In this document: positions 4,577-10,612 of the stretch, in pieces
Layout of the letters: each line of letters begins with the position of its first letter
Position numbering within the stretch: position 1 is the first letter of the stretch
Assembly: GCF_019679455.1 (NCBI RefSeq)
Contig: NZ_JAIEZQ010000001.1
Span: 744,001 to 808,000, forward strand
Length of the DNA stretch: 64,000 bases
Direction: 5' to 3'
DNA from: Nocardioides jiangsuensis
GTDB lineage: Bacteria > Actinomycetota > Actinomycetes > Propionibacteriales > Nocardioidaceae
The notes under the pieces: model-generated
What the model saw: the letters and a program-made list of their open reading frames with translations, nothing else
Told to the model about the DNA's origin: nothing
The model's database searches: none
Program-made: the position numbers and the translations under genes

Positions 4577-5232
4577 TCGAGCACACCGACCAGGGTCCCC
4601 TCGACCGTGACGGGATGGCCCGGCTCGTCGCCCGGGACATCCCGACGGGATCGTTCGTCAACCTGGGCATCGGGCAGCCCACGCGCGTCGCCGACTTCCT
4701 CGCCCCCGAGCAGCAGGTGGTGCTCCACACGGAGAACGGCATGCTCGGCATGGGTCCCGAGGCGCACGGCGACGCGATCGACCCGGACCTGATCAACGCC
4801 GGCAAGATCCCGGTCACCGAGCTGCCGGGGGCGTCGTACTTCCACCACGCCGACTCCTTCGCGATGATGCGCGGCGGCCATCTCGACGTCTGCGTGCTCG
4901 GCGCGTTCCAGGTGGCCGCGAACGGTGACCTGGCCAACTGGCACACCGGCGCACCGGACGCGATCCCGGCCGTCGGCGGTGCCATGGACCTGGCCACCGG
5001 CGCCAAGGACGTCTTCGTGATGATGACGCTGTTCGCGAAGGACGGCTCGGCCAAGCTGGTGAAGGAGTGCAGCTACCCGCTCACCGGCCTGGGCTGCGTC
5101 AGCCGCGTCTACACGGAGCAGGCGATCTTCCACCTGACCGCCGACGGGGTCGTCGTGGCGGAGACCTTCGGTACGACGCTCGAGGAGCTGGCCCAGCGTC
5201 TCGACGTCCCCCTGGCCGGGGCGCCGCAGTGA
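4573..5232 (+). CDS. pcaJ: 3-oxoadipate CoA-transferase, subunit B
   Basis: The 219-residue catalytic B subunit pairs with pcaI. The covalent-intermediate glutamate is Glu54 in HTENGMLG, with the NLGIGQPT loop ahead of it. GAFQV, GGAMDL and the C-terminal CVSRVYTE-type segment are those of family I CoA-transferases. The ATG lies within the pcaI stop (ATGA) and the TGA lies within the GTG of the next gene (GTGA), so three genes in a row are linked by 4-nt overlaps and probably made in fixed proportion. Confidence 0.92.
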   Translation: MIEHTDQGPLDRDGMARLVARDIPTGSFVNLGIGQPTRVADFLAPEQQVVLHTENGMLGMGPEAHGDAIDPDLINAGKIPVTELPGASYFHHADSFAMMRGGHLDVCVLGAFQVAANGDLANWHTGAPDAIPAVGGAMDLATGAKDVFVMMTLFAKDGSAKLVKECSYPLTGLGCVSRVYTEQAIFHLTADGVVVAETFGTTLEELAQRLDVPLAGAPQ

Positions 5233-5681
5233 CCGCGACCCGCACCGTCATGGTGCTCAACGGGCCCAACCTGAACCTCCTCGGGCGCCGGGACCCCGCG
5301 GTCTACGGCACCGCGACCCTCGCCGACGTCGAGGCGCTGTGCCGCGCCGAGGGCGAGAACCTCGGCCTGCGGGTCGACTGCCGGCAGAGCAACCACGAGG
5401 GCCTGCTGATCGACTGGATCCACGAGGCGTTCGGGGCCGGGGCCGCGATCGTGGGCAACTTCGGCGCCTACACCCACACCTCGATCGCGATCATGGACGC
5501 GCTCGCGGTGGTCACCGCGCCGGTGGTCGAGGTGCACATCTCCGACATCCACGCGCGGGAGGAGTTCCGCCACCGGTCGTACGTCGGGATGGTGGCGGAC
5601 GCCGCGGTGATCGGGCAGGGCGTCGGCGGCTACGCCTCGGCGCTCCGCCGGGTCGTCGAACTGTGGGACCGGGCGGACTAG
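5229..5681 (+). CDS. aroQ: Type II 3-dehydroquinate dehydratase, catabolic context
   Basis: The 150-residue protein converts 3-dehydroquinate to 3-dehydroshikimate by trans elimination and normally forms a dodecamer. Motifs are NGPNLNLLG (11-19), the active-site lid with Arg20/Arg21 and Tyr26, QSNHEG (53-58), GAYTHTS (79-85) and His103 in EVHISDIH. The usual HISN is HISD and the usual NPGAYTH is NFGAYTH, so it departs a little from biosynthetic copies. The GTG at 5229 is chosen because it overlaps the pcaJ stop; longer frames are pcaJ shadow. Its place at the end of the pca operon and opposite quiC argues for quinate catabolism, not aromatic amino acid synthesis. The stop is shared with quiC on the other strand. 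Confidence 0.9.
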   Translation: MTATRTVMVLNGPNLNLLGRRDPAVYGTATLADVEALCRAEGENLGLRVDCRQSNHEGLLIDWIHEAFGAGAAIVGNFGAYTHTSIAIMDALAVVTAPVVEVHISDIHAREEFRHRSYVGMVADAAVIGQGVGGYASALRRVVELWDRAD

Positions 5682-7480
5682 CGGGAGAGCTGGGCGGCGA
5701 GCCGGACCGGGGCGTTGGCGGCGCCGTACCCGTCGTAGCCACCGCGACGCTCCACGACCTCGAGGAAGACCCCTCCTGCCGTCGCGGTGTAGAAGTGCAG
5801 GAACTCGGCGTCGCCGTCCCGGTCGTAGAGCAGGTCCAGCTCCCGCAGGGTCGCCAGGAGGTCCGGCGCCAGGTCGAAGCGGGCGTCCAGGTCCTCGTAG
5901 TAGTTGTCGGGCACGGCCAGGGTCCTCAGGCCGCGGGCGCGCGCCTCCCTGGCCAGCGTCACGACGTCGCGGCAGGCGAACGCGATGTGCTGCGGCAGGC
6001 CGCCCTCGATCCCTGCGGGCAGGAGGTTCAGGGCCAGCCGGATCCTGCCGTCGCGCGACCGCATCACCTGGCTGGTCACCAGCCCGACGGGTCCCGCCAC
6101 CTCGAGTGCCGCCTGAGCCTCCAGTCCCAGCACCGAGCTGTAGAACAGCACCGCCTCGTCGTAGTGCTGCCAGGGCTGGACGAGGTTGACATGGTCGACG
6201 TGGGTGACGAGCGGGTCCGGGTCGGGCGACGCCCCCTGCTCGAACTCGACCGTCCAGGTGGCGTCGGGCCCCTCGGGCACCTCGCCCAGGAAGATCTCGG
6301 TGCCGTCCGGGGCGGCGAACGCGGCCAGCTCCTGCTCCCCCGCGTAGGTCCGCCGGTGCACCTGGGGCGCGAGGAGGCGCGCCGCGCGGTCCGCGGACAC
6401 GGCGGTCGAGGAGACCTCGTACCCGATCGCGGACAGCGTGGGCGGCATGTCCCGGGCCTGCTGCTCGTTGCAGACCACACGGGCGGAGCCCTGCGTCCAG
6501 AGCCGGACGGGCTTGCTGCGGTGCCGGCCCCGGAACGTGAAGCCGAGCTGGCGCAGCAGTACCTCCACCTCGCCGGCGTCCTCGGCCTTCACCTCGACGA
6601 AGTCGAGGCCGGCCGGCTCGTCCACGTCGGGCAGCCGGACGAGGTCGGGACCGGCCTCGCCGCCGAGCTGCCGTGCCGCCTGGTCCTCCAGCCACCGGAG
6701 CGAGCGCAGGGCCTGCCGCGCGGTGCGGTCGGGGTCGGTCTGCCGGAAGGTGTCGTTGAAGACCTCGAGGGAGAGCGGGCCGTCGTACCCGGTGCGGAGC
6801 ACGTGCGCGAGGAACTCGGCGAGCGCGAAGCTGCCCTCCCCCGGGAACAGCCGGTGGTGCCGGCTCCAGGACAGCACGTCCATGCTCAGCGTCGGAGCGT
6901 CGGCGAGCTGGAGGAAGAACACCTTGTCGCCGGGGATCTGCTCGATCGCCTTCGGGTCGTGCCCCCGGGAGAGGATGTGGAAGCTGTCGAGGCAGACGCC
7001 GACGGCGGGATGGTCGGCCAGCTCCACGACCCGCCAGGCCCGGCGGTAGTCGTCGACGTACCGGCCCCAGGCGAGCGCCTCGAACGCGAGCCGGACGCCG
7101 TACCCGGCGGCCAGGTCGCCGAGCTCGCGCAGCTGGGCGGCCGACACGTGGTCGTCGTCCACGCTCGCGGTGCCGACGTTGCTGCACACGAGCATGGTGT
7201 CCATGCCGAGCCGCCGCATCAGGCGGAACTTCGCCTCGGCGCGGCGCACGTTGCCGGCGAACGTCGCGGGGTCCACCCCCTCGGCGTCCCGGAACGGCTG
7301 GAAGAGGTCCAGCGTGATGCCGAGGCGGTCCGCCAGGGCGCGGATCTCCTCGGGGCTCTGCGGCGCCGTGACGAGGTCCGGCTCGAACACCTCGATGCCG
7401 TCGAAGCCTGCGGCCGCACAGGCCTCCATCTTCTGGGTGAGGGTGCCACTGAGGCAGACGGTGGCGATCGACGTACGCAT
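5678..7480 (-). CDS. quiC: 3-dehydroshikimate dehydratase, TIM-barrel fused to HPPD-like VOC domain
   Basis: The 600-residue enzyme should convert 3-dehydroshikimate to protocatechuate. Residues 1-270 are a xylose isomerase-like TIM barrel with the four expected metal ligands Glu134 (FEALAW), Asp165 (CLDSFHIL), Gln191 (FFLQLAD) and Glu239 (SLEVFND). Residues about 295-600 resemble 4-hydroxyphenylpyruvate dioxygenase and keep the facial triad His430 (HVDH), His498 (LPQHIAF) and Glu574 (VFLEVVE). This architecture is the QuiC1 type known from pseudomonads. The role of the second domain in such fusions is not settled. ATG with a good AGGAGG site follows a 25-bp candidate operator. It is convergent with aroQ, both stops being read from one CTAG at 5678-5681. 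Confidence 0.9.
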   Translation of the reverse strand: MRTSIATVCLSGTLTQKMEACAAAGFDGIEVFEPDLVTAPQSPEEIRALADRLGITLDLFQPFRDAEGVDPATFAGNVRRAEAKFRLMRRLGMDTMLVCSNVGTASVDDDHVSAAQLRELGDLAAGYGVRLAFEALAWGRYVDDYRRAWRVVELADHPAVGVCLDSFHILSRGHDPKAIEQIPGDKVFFLQLADAPTLSMDVLSWSRHHRLFPGEGSFALAEFLAHVLRTGYDGPLSLEVFNDTFRQTDPDRTARQALRSLRWLEDQAARQLGGEAGPDLVRLPDVDEPAGLDFVEVKAEDAGEVEVLLRQLGFTFRGRHRSKPVRLWTQGSARVVCNEQQARDMPPTLSAIGYEVSSTAVSADRAARLLAPQVHRRTYAGEQELAAFAAPDGTEIFLGEVPEGPDATWTVEFEQGASPDPDPLVTHVDHVNLVQPWQHYDEAVLFYSSVLGLEAQAALEVAGPVGLVTSQVMRSRDGRIRLALNLLPAGIEGGLPQHIAFACRDVVTLAREARARGLRTLAVPDNYYEDLDARFDLAPDLLATLRELDLLYDRDGDAEFLHFYTATAGGVFLEVVERRGGYDGYGAANAPVRLAAQLSR

Positions 7481-7494
7481 GCAGGCCTCCTGAG

Positions 7495-7519
7495 TAATGA
7501 ACTAAACAGTACATACGTG
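7495..7519 (-). promoter_or_regulatory. Candidate operator, quiC copy of a 25-bp repeated element
   Basis: Read on the minus strand, this 25-mer matches 20 of 25 bases of the element at 8290-8314 on the plus strand. Both contain CACGTA, GTAC and an identical TAGTTCATTA end. It holds an imperfect dyad GTACT-N4-AGTTC. The element ends just before the quiC ribosome-binding site, 15 nt from the ATG. The likely binder is the TetR protein encoded next to it; this is inferred from position only. Confidence 0.68.
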
Positions 7520-7552
7520 GGAGCCGCCTGACCAGCCCTCCCCCTCGCCCAC

Positions 7553-7558
7553 TAGGCT
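7553..7558 (+). promoter_or_regulatory. -10 element of tetR, leaderless start
   Basis: TAGGCT stands 6 nt before the ATG at 7565 and no Shine-Dalgarno sequence is present, so transcription probably begins at the A of the start codon. Confidence 0.5.
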
Positions 7559-7564
7559 CTCGCC

Positions 7565-8206
7565 ATGTCCGAGGCCACCGAGCACGAGCGCATCCGCGAC
7601 GCCGACCGCACCCGCGCCGAGCTCCTCCAGGTGGCCACCGAGGTCTTCGCCGAGCAGGGCCTCTCCGGTGCCCGGGTCGACGAGATCGCCGAGCGGACCC
7701 GCACCACCAAGCGGATGATCTACTACTACTTCGGCGGCAAGGAGCAGCTCTACCGGGCCGTTCTCGAGGCCGCGTACCGCGGGATCCGCGAGGCGGAGCA
7801 GGGCATCCACGCCGGCGACCTCCCCCCGGTCGAGGCGGTACGCCGCATCGCCGAGCTGACCTTCGACCACCACCACGCCCACCCGGCGTTCATCCGGCTG
7901 GTGAGCATCGAGAACATCCACCGCGGGGTCCACCTGCGGCAGGTCGACTCGCTCCGCGACCTCAGCAACCCCGTCGCCACGCTCCTCGACGACGTCCTCA
8001 CCCGCGGACGCGCCGACGGAACGTTCCGCGACGACGTGGACGCGATCGACGTACACATGCTGATCAGCTCCTACTGCGTCTTCCAGGTCGCCAACAACAG
8101 CACCTTCGGGTTCTTGTTCGGGCGCGACATGCGGGCCCCGGACGTGCGGGCCCGCCACCGCGAGATGCTCGGCGACATCGTGGTCGCCTGGCTCACCCAG
8201 CGCTGA
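7565..8206 (+). CDS. TetR family transcriptional regulator, probable regulator of quiC and the dehydrogenase
   Basis: The 213-residue DNA-binding protein has a TetR N-terminal domain. The helix-turn-helix covers about residues 32-56 (GLSGARVDEIAERTRTTKRMIYYYF, partly shown by RVDEIAERT and MIYYYFGGKEQLYRAV). The C-terminal ligand domain is rich in His and Asp (TFDHHHAHPAF) and has a C-terminal segment like that of larger TetR members. It is divergent from quiC and followed by the quinate/shikimate dehydrogenase gene on the same strand, each of which has a copy of the same 25-bp element upstream. The natural ligand may be a pathway intermediate such as protocatechuate, dehydroshikimate or shikimate. 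It acts most likely as a repressor, but nothing in the sequence proves the sign of regulation. Confidence 0.88.
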   Translation: MSEATEHERIRDADRTRAELLQVATEVFAEQGLSGARVDEIAERTRTTKRMIYYYFGGKEQLYRAVLEAAYRGIREAEQGIHAGDLPPVEAVRRIAELTFDHHHAHPAFIRLVSIENIHRGVHLRQVDSLRDLSNPVATLLDDVLTRGRADGTFRDDVDAIDVHMLISSYCVFQVANNSTFGFLFGRDMRAPDVRARHREMLGDIVVAWLTQR

Positions 8207-8259
8207 CGCGCGCCGAGAGCGCCGCACTCCCCCGACCGGATCCCGGTCTCGACCACCCC

Positions 8260-8288
8260 TTGACGCCCGCGCACCTCTGTGATGTGCT
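8260..8288 (+). promoter_or_regulatory. Possible promoter of the quinate/shikimate dehydrogenase gene
   Basis: TTGACG (8260-8265) and TGTGCT (8283-8288) are separated by 17 nt, directly ahead of the candidate operator at 8290. A repressor bound there would cover the transcription start. The -10 hexamer is a weak match. Confidence 0.35.
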
Positions 8289-8289
8289 T

Positions 8290-8314
8290 CACGTACGTAC
8301 CAGATAGTTCATTA
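8290..8314 (+). promoter_or_regulatory. Candidate operator, dehydrogenase copy of the 25-bp repeated element
   Basis: This copy begins CACGTACGTAC and ends ATAGTTCATTA. It matches the quiC-side element at 20 of 25 positions in the opposite orientation, and its last base abuts the AGGAG ribosome-binding site of the next gene, as it nearly does at quiC. The two copies therefore share sequence, orientation relative to the gene and distance to the start codon. Confidence 0.68.
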
Positions 8315-8323
8315 GGAGCGAGC

Positions 8324-9187
8324 ATGTCGGACGCCTACCTCGTGGGTCTCGTCGGCGCCGGAGTCACCCGGTCGTTCACCCCCGCGATGCACATGCGGGA
8401 GGCGGACGCGCACGGGCTGCGCTACCTCTACCGAGCGATCGACCTCAGCGCCCTCGGGATCTCCCCCACCGAGATCGGCGACCTTGTGCGCTCCGCCCGG
8501 ATCCTCGGGTACGACGCGCTCAACATCACCCACCCGTGCAAGCAGCTGGTCATCGAGCACCTGGACCGCCTGGACGAGACCGCCGCCCGGCTGGGCGCCG
8601 TCAACACGGTGGTGTTCGAGGACGGCGCGGCGGTCGGCTACAACACCGACACCACCGGCTTCGCCTCCGCCGTACGCCACCACCTGCCCGGGGCCGCGGT
8701 CGGCGGCGTCGTGCAGCTGGGAGCGGGCGGCGCGGGCACGGCCGTCGCGGACGCCCTGCTCTCCCTCGGGACCGAGCACCTCGTGCTGGTCGACGTCGAC
8801 GAGTCGCGCAGCACGAAGCTCGCCCGGGAGCTCGCGCAGCGCCACCCCGAGGCCAGGGTCGAGAGCGGCCACCCGGACAAGCTGCCGGTGCTGCTGCCCG
8901 CGGCCGACGGCCTGGTGCACTGCACCCCCACCGGGATGGCCGACCACCCCGGCCTCCCGCTGGACCCCGCGCTCCTCCACCCCGGGATGTGGGTCGCGGA
9001 CATCGTCTACCGGCCGCTCGACACCGCACTGCTGCAGGCAGCACGGCACGCGGGCTGCCGCACCCTGCACGGAGGGCACATGGCGGTCTACCAGGCCGTC
9101 GACGCCTTCCGGCTGATCACAGGCGTCGACCCCGACGCCGACCGCATGCTCGCCCACCTCAGCGAGCTCGCCGCCGAGCGCGGCTGA
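8324..9187 (+). CDS. aroE: Quinate/shikimate dehydrogenase, NAD type (AroE family)
   Basis: The 287-residue enzyme should oxidise shikimate and/or quinate. The substrate site SFTPAMH (17-23), catalytic Lys73 in NITHPCKQ and Asp109 in YNTDTTGF are present, as is the Rossmann loop LGAGGAGTAV (132-141). The second strand ends in VLVDVDES with Asp157, which favours NAD over NADP and resembles catabolic QsuD of Corynebacterium rather than biosynthetic AroE. The ATG at 8324 follows an AGGAG site; an upstream in-frame ATG at 8279 would run through the promoter and operator and is rejected. It sits with TetR, quiC and a transporter. The use of the symbol aroE reflects family, not a biosynthetic role. 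Confidence 0.88.
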   Translation: MSDAYLVGLVGAGVTRSFTPAMHMREADAHGLRYLYRAIDLSALGISPTEIGDLVRSARILGYDALNITHPCKQLVIEHLDRLDETAARLGAVNTVVFEDGAAVGYNTDTTGFASAVRHHLPGAAVGGVVQLGAGGAGTAVADALLSLGTEHLVLVDVDESRSTKLARELAQRHPEARVESGHPDKLPVLLPAADGLVHCTPTGMADHPGLPLDPALLHPGMWVADIVYRPLDTALLQAARHAGCRTLHGGHMAVYQAVDAFRLITGVDPDADRMLAHLSELAAERG

Positions 9188-9280: not shown

Positions 9281-10612
9281 ATGGAGGGACCGAGCACCAC
9301 CGGCAAGACCCCGCACAGGGCAGCGGTCGCGAGCTTCATGGGCAGCGCCGTGGAGTACTACGACTTCTTCGTCTTCGGCTCCGCGGCCGCCCTGATCTTC
9401 CCGCATGTCTTCTTCCCCGACGACAACGCCTCCGCGCTGGTGATGTCGTTCGCGACCTTCGCGTTCGCCTACGTCGCCCGCCCCTTCGGCGCGGTCATCC
9501 TCGGCCACTTCGGCGACCGCGTCGGCCGCCAGCGCGTGCTGATGTTCACCCTGCTGCTGATGGGCTTCTCCACGTTCGTGATCGGCTGCCTGCCGTCGTA
9601 CGACGCCATCGGCTGGGCGGCTCCGGCGCTCCTCGTCCTGTGCCGTCTGCTGCAGGGCCTCTCCGCCGCCGGCGAGCAGGCCGGCGCGAGCTCGCTGACG
9701 CTGGAGCACGCACCCGACGACCGCCGGTCGTTCTTCACCTCCTGGACGCTGACCGGGACCCAGGGCGGTCAGATCCTGGCGGCCCTGGTCTTCATCCCGG
9801 TCGTGGCGCTGCCGGACGACATCAAGTACACCATCGGCTGGCGGATCCCCTTCTGGCTCAGCGCCGTGGTGGTCGTCGTCGCCTACTTCATCCGCCGCAG
9901 CCTGCACGAGCCGCCGTCGTTCCAGGAGGCCAAGGAGAACGACCAGATCGCCCGCCTCCCCGTCGTCGTGCTGCTCCGCGAGCACTGGGCCGACGTGCTC
10001 CGCGTCATCTGCTGCGCCTTCATCGCGGCCGTCTCCACCGTGTTCGGCAACCTCGCCATCGCCTACGGCACCGAGGTCGGCGTGAACGAGTCGATCACCC
10101 TGTGGCTGGTCGTCGTCGCGAACATCGTGGCGCTGTTCACGCAGCCCATGTTCGGTCGCCTCGCCGACAGGATCGGACGCAAGCCGGTCTTCATCTACGG
10201 CGCGCTCTCCAGCGCCGCGCTCATGCCGTTCTACCTGCTGTCGATGAGCGCCGACAACGAGCTGCTGACTTTCGCCCTCGCGGTGCTCACGTTCTCCTTC
10301 GGGTACGCCGCCGCGAACGCCACCTGGCCGTCCTTCTACGGCGAGATGTTCAGCACCCAGGTGCGCTTCTCGGGCGTGGCGATCGGGACCCAGCTCGGCT
10401 TCCTGATGGCCGGCTTCGCCCCGACGATCGTCACCGCGCTGGGCGGCGTCCAGGAGGGCGGCTGGGTCGTCACCGCCGGCTTCACCGCGGTCATCGCCCT
10501 CATCGCCGCCGTCTCCGCGGCCACGGCCCGGGAGACCCGGGACGTGCCCACCTCGGAGCTCGGCCTCAAGCGGGGTGCCGCCGCGGAGGTGCGGGTGCCG
10601 ACCTCCGTCTGA
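9281..10612 (+). CDS. MFS transporter, metabolite:H+ symporter type, probable shikimate/quinate uptake
   Basis: The 443-residue inner-membrane protein has about 12 hydrophobic segments. Its opening, ASFMGSAVEYYDFFVFG, is the hallmark of the metabolite:H+ symporter family that includes the shikimate carrier ShiA. The loop 2-3 motif GHFGDRVGRQR and the central GRLADRIGRKP repeat are typical MFS signatures. The ATG at 9281 has a strong GAGGAGGA site; an in-frame ATG at 9191 has none and would add a non-conserved leader. It follows the dehydrogenase gene by 93 nt and ends at a strong terminator. Shikimate or quinate is the likely substrate from context; protocatechuate is possible. Confidence 0.85.
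   Translation: MEGPSTTGKTPHRAAVASFMGSAVEYYDFFVFGSAAALIFPHVFFPDDNASALVMSFATFAFAYVARPFGAVILGHFGDRVGRQRVLMFTLLLMGFSTFVIGCLPSYDAIGWAAPALLVLCRLLQGLSAAGEQAGASSLTLEHAPDDRRSFFTSWTLTGTQGGQILAALVFIPVVALPDDIKYTIGWRIPFWLSAVVVVVAYFIRRSLHEPPSFQEAKENDQIARLPVVVLLREHWADVLRVICCAFIAAVSTVFGNLAIAYGTEVGVNESITLWLVVVANIVALFTQPMFGRLADRIGRKPVFIYGALSSAALMPFYLLSMSADNELLTFALAVLTFSFGYAAANATWPSFYGEMFSTQVRFSGVAIGTQLGFLMAGFAPTIVTALGGVQEGGWVVTAGFTAVIALIAAVSAATARETRDVPTSELGLKRGAAAEVRVPTSV

Follow-up and report, generated by a model that had tools for sequence, protein, structure and literature searches.

Which regulator controls the entry of the plant acids quinate and shikimate into catabolism in Nocardioides jiangsuensis? 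In the 64-kb stretch of its genome that we analyzed (the window), a TetR-family gene lies between quiC and a shikimate/quinate dehydrogenase gene, and similar elements lie ahead of those two genes. Are these elements the operators of the TetR protein, and which genes do they control?

Genes of the locus

The relevant features of the window are:

Window start, plus strand: pcaB-like gene (TIGR02426, 332.3 bits, just below the cut-off of 355.75)
About 5232-5681, plus strand: aroQ, type II 3-dehydroquinate dehydratase gene, which ends the pca operon (from a domain search)
5678..7480, minus strand: quiC, two-domain 3-dehydroshikimate dehydratase (AP_endonuc_2, 1.2e-41; Glyoxalase_5, 4.3e-9)
7495..7516, minus strand: O1, predicted operator before quiC, GTATGTACTGTTTAGTTCATTA (minus strand), between the divergent quiC and tetR
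7553..7558, plus strand: -10-like TAGGCT of tetR, 6 nt before the tetR ATG, read from the sequence
7565..8206, plus strand: tetR, TetR-family regulator of 213 aa, predicted repressor (Pfam TetR_N, 3.1e-14; TetR_C_29, 1e-46)
8260..8265, plus strand: -35-like TTGACG of the dehydrogenase promoter, starting 33 bp before O2
8278..8292, plus strand: CRP-like palindrome TGTGATGTGCTTCAC, over the likely -10 and abutting O2
8293..8314, plus strand: O2, predicted operator before the shikimate/quinate dehydrogenase gene, GTACGTACCAGATAGTTCATTA
8324..9187, plus strand: shikimate/quinate dehydrogenase-like gene (sdh/qsuD-like; Shikimate_dh_N, 1.6e-18)
9281..10612, plus strand: MFS transporter gene, shikimate-transporter-like (MFS_1, 5.2e-41), without an operator of its own

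The product of quiC has an N-terminal TIM barrel and a C-terminal HPPD-like half, as in the QuiC/QsuB type. It matches the NCBIfam model for QuiC over nearly its full length, with 539 bits against a curated cut-off of 1200, so we describe it as a relative of QuiC. The dehydrogenase scores 405.6 bits with PRK12549 (above the cut-off of 235) and 245.6 bits with the model for quinate/shikimate dehydrogenase (NAD+) (below the cut-off of 515). The best NCBIfam models for the MFS transporter are metabolite/H+ symporter and shikimate transporter, both below their cut-offs; its gene is probably read through from the dehydrogenase gene.

On the other side of quiC, the pcaB-like gene is followed by frames which we take to be pcaDC, pcaF, pcaI, and pcaJ (named from the open frames). 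Just upstream of the window are pcaHG-type dioxygenase frames, with IclR and FAD-monooxygenase genes beside them on the minus strand (locus L146). Another 3-dehydroquinate dehydratase gene, 50% identical to the pca-linked copy, is found on contig C2, and the copy linked to pca may thus serve as an isozyme for catabolism.

Two similar elements in the window

The 25-mers at 7495-7519 (minus strand; CACGTATGTACTGTTTAGTTCATTA) and at 8290-8314 (plus strand; CACGTACGTACCAGATAGTTCATTA) are identical at 20 of 25 positions, as the original prediction reported, and the ten-base end that they were said to share, TAGTTCATTA, is present in both. They do lie close to the starts of the genes, with a gap to the start codon of 14 nt for quiC and 9 nt for the dehydrogenase gene; O1 is placed just ahead of the ribosome-binding site of quiC. 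With as many as 3 mismatches allowed at the shared positions, these two copies were the only matches in the window (expected 0.00), and the entire genome (3,965,686 bases) had one forward and one reverse match, versus none for the backwards control.

Comparison to relatives (see below) showed that conservation extends over 22 bp (7495-7516 and 8293-8314), which form a palindrome, TAAYGTAC-N6-GTACATTA. The CAC that is common to both 25-mers is outside this motif. The window's copies are weakly symmetric (12/22 and 10/22 positions), so the palindrome is visible only via the relatives. Each element had been described as an imperfect dyad with half-sites like GTACT/AGTTC; the dyad is real, but these half-sites are too short. 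Conservation puts 6 bp between arms of TAAYGTAC and GTACATTA, which rules out a full site of GTACT/AGTTC with a 4-bp spacer. The inverted orientation of the two elements says little because a palindrome has no orientation.

With a matrix from all of the loci, O1 scores 31.8 bits and O2 scores 31.1 bits; with a matrix trained outside of the family, they score 30.2 and 30.5 bits. A scan of the window at 5 bits or above found only these two sites. O1 also lies 48 nt ahead of tetR.

A palindrome upstream of quiC and sdh in many genera

We searched 341 genomes from the window's family (Nocardioidaceae) and found an orthologue of the TetR protein (E ≤ 1e-40) in 34 of them. We compared the locus sequences of the best 30 of these, including the window, along with the best 80 further loci from a scan of named genomes, in which more exist. 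Some of these 110 loci represent one assembly twice (such as L018/L038 and L026/L039). They come from Nocardioides, Aeromicrobium, Microbacterium, Mycolicibacterium, Gordonia, Streptomyces, Saccharopolyspora, Geodermatophilus, and other genera, and 107 of them also have a match to quiC, sdh (the dehydrogenase gene), or the MFS transporter gene (mfs); the exceptions are L044, L059, and L112.

In 59 non-redundant loci (with TetR proteins under 90% identical and with DNA from upstream of quiC or sdh), we searched exhaustively for inverted repeats with 5-base arms and spacers of 0-14. The top dyad of all was TGTAC-N6-GTACA, which was present in 12 of the 59 loci, while the maximum in 30 shuffles was 4. 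Because unrelated G+C-rich dyads were also above the shuffles (CGACG-N1-CGTCG in 8/59 loci, CGACG-N4-CGTCG in 7/59, and CCGGG-N5-CCCGG in 7/59), this control is lenient if taken alone. Refining the top dyad gave the 22-bp palindrome (28.7 bits), which is found mostly 5-65 nt ahead of quiC and sdh in loci with the TetR orthologue.

The motif is present where the TetR orthologue is, as the original prediction required. Using the all-locus matrix, which was trained on the loci that it counts and with a less strict redundancy filter, 104 of the 110 loci had a site of at least 15 bits. In total, these loci (896 kb) contain 172 such sites, and the reversed loci contain none. Most of the sites (160/172) are at most 260 nt upstream of quiC, sdh, mfs, or tetR; the other 12 include ten in TRAP-type loci (described below) and one each in L010 and L114. 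Of the six loci with no 15-bit site, L033 and L051 each have an 11-bit site, and L066 and L116 are on contigs that appear to start inside the unit. The other two are L112 and L044.

Closer to independent are the genome-wide pattern tests of the next section and a matrix trained on 54 loci from outside the Nocardioidaceae. When tested on Nocardioidaceae loci (including the window, and not filtered for redundancy), this outside-family matrix found sites at 32/34 quiC genes, 22/22 sdh genes, and 1/23 mfs genes; at 15 bits, it found none in 1580 shuffles. Among the non-redundant loci, 30/49 quiC genes, 39/48 sdh genes, and 13/39 mfs genes have a site scoring 15 bits or more within 150 nt, versus 0/1360 shuffles. 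(Gene starts in the relatives were extrapolated from protein matches, which shifts some of these distances by a few codons.) Seven of the nine sdh genes that lack a site within 150 nt are internal genes of TRAP-type loci. As for the other two, the site in L079 is further upstream, and the site in L114 is at the front of a longer row of genes.

Many mycobacterial and Streptomyces operators (in L043, L045, L055, L061, L092, L098, and others) have an overlapping second dyad that is shifted by 4 bp. These might bind two dimers or allow sliding use of half-sites.

The palindrome occurs with the TetR gene

Across the 341 family genomes, an exact 20-base pattern (itself derived from the all-locus matrix) was found in 27 of the 34 TetR-positive genomes but in just 1 of the 307 TetR-negative genomes (Fisher 1.9e-32), some of which could be misses, as these searches score the best few candidates in each genome. 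The backwards control matched 2 of the 341 genomes. Six of the seven TetR-positive genomes that lack the exact pattern have sites of 19-29 bits, and the other has a site of 11 bits.

The gene quiC is more widespread than the TetR gene: it is found at E ≤ 1e-60 in 76 of the 341 family genomes, including all 34 TetR-positive genomes. None of the 42 genomes with quiC and without the TetR orthologue has the exact pattern (Fisher 1.9e-14, versus 27/34). In 19 of these 42 genomes, quiC is 62-71% identical to that of the window, and in the other 23, it is 44-54% identical. We also scored nine quiC loci from TetR-negative genomes, along with a second copy of quiC in a TetR-positive genome (G042), and the best match in any of them was at most -8.6 bits.

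In a sample of 396 genomes from the phylum, the exact pattern is less telling, as it was found in 5/10 TetR-positive genomes, 3/386 others, and 11/396 genomes for the backwards control. A matrix scan of nine loci from other TetR-positive genomes of the phylum found a site of at least 22 bits in seven, with L182 and L186 lacking one; the genome of L182 has two matches to the pattern, at distances of about 5 and 7 kb, and one of them directly precedes quiC.

The only TetR-orthologue-negative genome of the family with a match is G268 (L138, 757-3007). Its site stands between a different TetR gene (TetR_N only) and, by eye, an FAD-monooxygenase-like gene. This match could be due to chance, or it could be a similar operator of another TetR protein.

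The motif and the TetR gene stay together through at least three gene arrangements. In the window's type, tetR is divergent from quiC, with sdh-mfs behind. In another, tetR diverges from an sdh-quiC operon and has mfs behind it, and in a third, sdh-mfs is divergent from tetR, with quiC behind. A TRAP-type group, with Microbacterium murale and an Arthrobacter among its members, has the TetR gene downstream of TRAP transporter genes. For instance, in L040 (38-4924), the operator heads a row of DctM, SDH, DctP, PTE, and TetR genes (Pfam confirms DctM, SDH, DctP, and a phosphotriesterase), and in L059 (990-3961), the operator is before TRAP genes (Pfam confirms DctM and DctP), with the TetR gene downstream.

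A phosphotriesterase-family protein, as in the TRAP variant L040, is also encoded directly before quiC in three TetR-negative loci (L153, 2-1495; L157, 362-1498; and L168, 215-1498) and before the second quiC of G042 (L161, 254-1495). Our guess is that it hydrolyzes a lactone or ester of quinate or shikimate.

In the genome G501, a 28.0-bit site lies before a second SDH gene that is on a different contig than tetR (L193, 1500-2416), so the regulon may act in trans. By eye, this gene adjoins genes that resemble ATPases of branched-chain-type ABC transporters.

Sites are at the heads of transcription units

We classified genes as internal if they start 700-1300 nt behind the start of sdh on the same strand, and as heads of units otherwise. 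In the non-redundant set, 21 of 23 quiC genes at the head of a unit have a site, versus 0 of 15 that are behind sdh. (Where sdh is not visible, 9 of 11 quiC genes have a site.) Similarly, 9 of 13 mfs genes at the head of a unit have a site, versus 0 of 22 behind sdh; by subtraction, all four mfs regions from loci without sdh have one. An operator would be placed in this way, whereas a feature of the coding sequences or RNAs of these genes would not. If sites are only at the heads of units, then the window's transporter gene should be controlled solely via the dehydrogenase promoter.

A consensus scan of 7400-8400 for sigma-70 promoters and terminators found neither (0 and 0), and TTGACG was not scored as a promoter, so we read the dehydrogenase promoter from conservation. 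Of the 40 sdh regions that have an operator, 24 have TTGAC at 30-41 bp ahead of it. Because TTGACG starts 33 bp before O2, O2 begins at about the likely start point of transcription.

The CRP-like element between them suggests that the dehydrogenase promoter might have a second, global input. The pattern TGTGAN6TCAC occurs 16 times in the genome, versus 0 for the backwards control. Of the sdh regions, 7 of 11 from Nocardioidaceae have a similar element that precedes the operator by 15-20 bp, versus 0 of 29 others. As for tetR itself, the position of TAGGCT suggests that its transcript is possibly leaderless, and by eye, many relatives have similar hexamers near the start of tetR.

The proposed switch and the pca operon

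How self-contained is this switch? The part of the original prediction that concerns quiC and the dehydrogenase gene is supported: both have predicted operators at their heads, and these track tetR. The transporter gene, also named as part of the switch, lacks a separate site and would be covered only through co-transcription with the dehydrogenase gene. For quinate, one step falls outside the switch: the gene for 3-dehydroquinate dehydratase (aroQ) sits in the pca operon in this genome. In 14 loci from Microbacterium, other Microbacteriaceae, and mycobacteria, aroQ is behind quiC on the same strand, so there, unlike in the window, aroQ may belong to the switch.

The proposed separation from the pca operon was borne out. 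L146, which is 15.4 kb, contains pcaHG, and reaches 400 bases into the window, has no match of 0 bits or above, and the IclR gene adjoins pcaHG. As L146 is empty and the window has only O1 and O2, we reject the idea that a nearby copy of this operator also controls the pca operon.

The TetR protein

The TetR_N domain of the protein scores 52.9 bits (versus a cut-off of 24). At E ≤ 0.001, we found only TetR-type domains and no LysR-type domains. The AlphaFold model is all-helical, with a typical TetR fold and a mean pLDDT of 89.9. According to Foldseek, the nearest solved fold is 3npi (E = 7.7e-11, TM 0.76-0.79, 36% identity), followed by RutR (4jyk, 21% identity). Residues 47-56 show little or no variation in an alignment of 53 TetR sequences; they include a helix (49-56) at the position of the recognition helix. 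Seven polar residues in the ligand-binding half are also invariant (H103, E116, N117, H164, S168, N177, and T180), and we suspect that these bind a polar acid.

Proposed mechanism

We propose that O1 and O2 are the operators of the TetR protein that is encoded between them, and that it represses both units until a hydroaromatic acid appears; we consider this very likely. Binding by TetR, repression rather than activation, derepression by a ligand, and the ligand's identity are what we infer from the patterns described above. Without inducer, a TetR dimer would sit on each 22-bp palindrome. On O2, it would cover the start point of the dehydrogenase transcript, just after the -10. Both units, the dehydrogenase and MFS transporter genes as well as quiC, would be shut. 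This would keep 3-dehydroshikimate, which is needed for making aromatic amino acids, from draining to protocatechuate. Uptake of quinate or shikimate would supply the ligand, a hydroaromatic acid (one of these two or 3-dehydroshikimate), whose binding would release TetR from the DNA. The acids would then be funnelled to protocatechuate, with the pca operon handled separately. Because O1 lies between the divergent quiC and tetR, TetR may also regulate its own gene.

We expect the effector to be quinate, shikimate, or 3-dehydroshikimate rather than protocatechuate because the sites are at genes for uptake, the dehydrogenase, and the dehydratase. The pca genes, by comparison, are next to an IclR gene and have no site nearby in this genome.

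We also considered that the palindrome might be the TetR protein's site, with TetR activating its targets or having a dual role. The position of the site does not by itself prove the sign of the effect, a few TetR proteins do act as activators, and the activator FasR is among the weak family matches of this protein (39.1 bits versus a cut-off of 330). However, activators usually bind at or upstream of the -35. In those 24 of 40 sdh regions, the spacing from TTGAC puts the operator over the start point, where a bound protein should block RNA polymerase. A protein bound to O2 should likewise block initiation, which argues for repression, and we think that activation or dual regulation is unlikely.

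It seems more improbable still that the element is the site of another regulator, or a conserved promoter or leader element of quiC and sdh, with the TetR gene merely nearby. The sites are close to start codons, and the CRP-like element does point to another regulator at the sdh promoter. But none of the 42 family genomes with quiC and without the TetR orthologue has the motif, which rules out a general feature of quiC promoters. Furthermore, the nine quiC loci without TetR and the second quiC of G042 have negative scores, and the motif accompanies the TetR gene through its different arrangements. Least credible of all is that the two 25-mers match by chance or because of a recent duplication of the intergenic regions. 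The genome does have only two copies, and they are quite similar. But in 60 shuffles of the intergenic pair, the best match was at most 17/25 (versus the actual 20/25), and many genera retain the site at both positions but little of the flanking sequence. Given the conservation, the shuffles, and the uniqueness within the genome, we exclude this explanation.

Relation to known regulators

The general design, with TetR as a repressor and palindromic operators, is an ordinary one. The nearest solved relative, by sequence (E = 1.2e-32) as well as by fold, is the TetR-family protein DIP1788 (3npi) from Corynebacterium diphtheriae. A literature search found no target or ligand for DIP1788, and at about 36% identity, we do not assume that it shares a target with the window's protein. 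RutR matches in fold and has a known ligand, uracil, that is small and polar, but the window's protein scores just 51.9 bits with the NCBIfam model for RutR (cut-off 368), and the gene context differs. PcaU/PcaR-type regulators of the IclR family control protocatechuate genes. They act directly downstream in the pathway, and this genome has an IclR gene beside pcaHG. But they are from another family and act on another operon, and the 15.4 kb around pcaHG has no site of the TetR type.

The closest functional parallel is QsuR from Corynebacterium glutamicum, which PMC11258901 describes as a LysR-type, chorismate-dependent activator of the qsu genes. According to that paper, QsuR controls the same steps (quinate/shikimate dehydrogenase and a two-domain 3-dehydroshikimate dehydratase), also in an actinobacterial host. 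In contrast to the window's TetR protein, with one palindrome per unit, QsuR is a LysR protein that is described there as activating one divergent promoter from three operator sites. Also, aroQ lies outside of the window's switch, which differs from the QsuR system as described there. By analogy with the effect of chorismate on QsuR in that account, it is possible that TetR responds to a downstream signal instead.

In the literature that we searched, which covered titles, abstract openings, and selected passages and had most subscription journals outside its scope, we found no description of a TetR regulator of quinate or shikimate genes. Specifically, none is mentioned in the passages from PMC8222616, PMC6498646, PMC11258901, PMC12566513, or PMC7442255. 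Similarly, the main text of a paper on the genome context of TetR proteins (PMC3511530) does not mention shikimate, quinate, dehydroshikimate, or protocatechuate.

Implications

Overall, we think that this is probably an undescribed actinobacterial regulon, in which a TetR sensor and the TAAYGTAC-N6-GTACATTA operator govern the entry of quinate and shikimate into catabolism in bacteria from Nocardioides, Mycolicibacterium, and Microbacterium to Streptomyces and Geodermatophilus, and which extends to TRAP-type uptake operons and to one unlinked second dehydrogenase gene. This names a likely gatekeeper and its predicted sites for a wide range of actinobacteria. Which metabolite signals an outside supply becomes directly testable, and a sensor for an acid of the shikimate pathway would be a useful biosensor part. 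Because 3-dehydroshikimate and shikimate are biosynthetic intermediates as well as food, the dehydratase must stay off unless the acid is external. If our proposal is correct, then a TetR sensor of a shikimate-pathway acid guards the branch between the biosynthesis and the degradation of aromatic compounds, and it takes the role that a LysR protein, QsuR, has in C. glutamicum.
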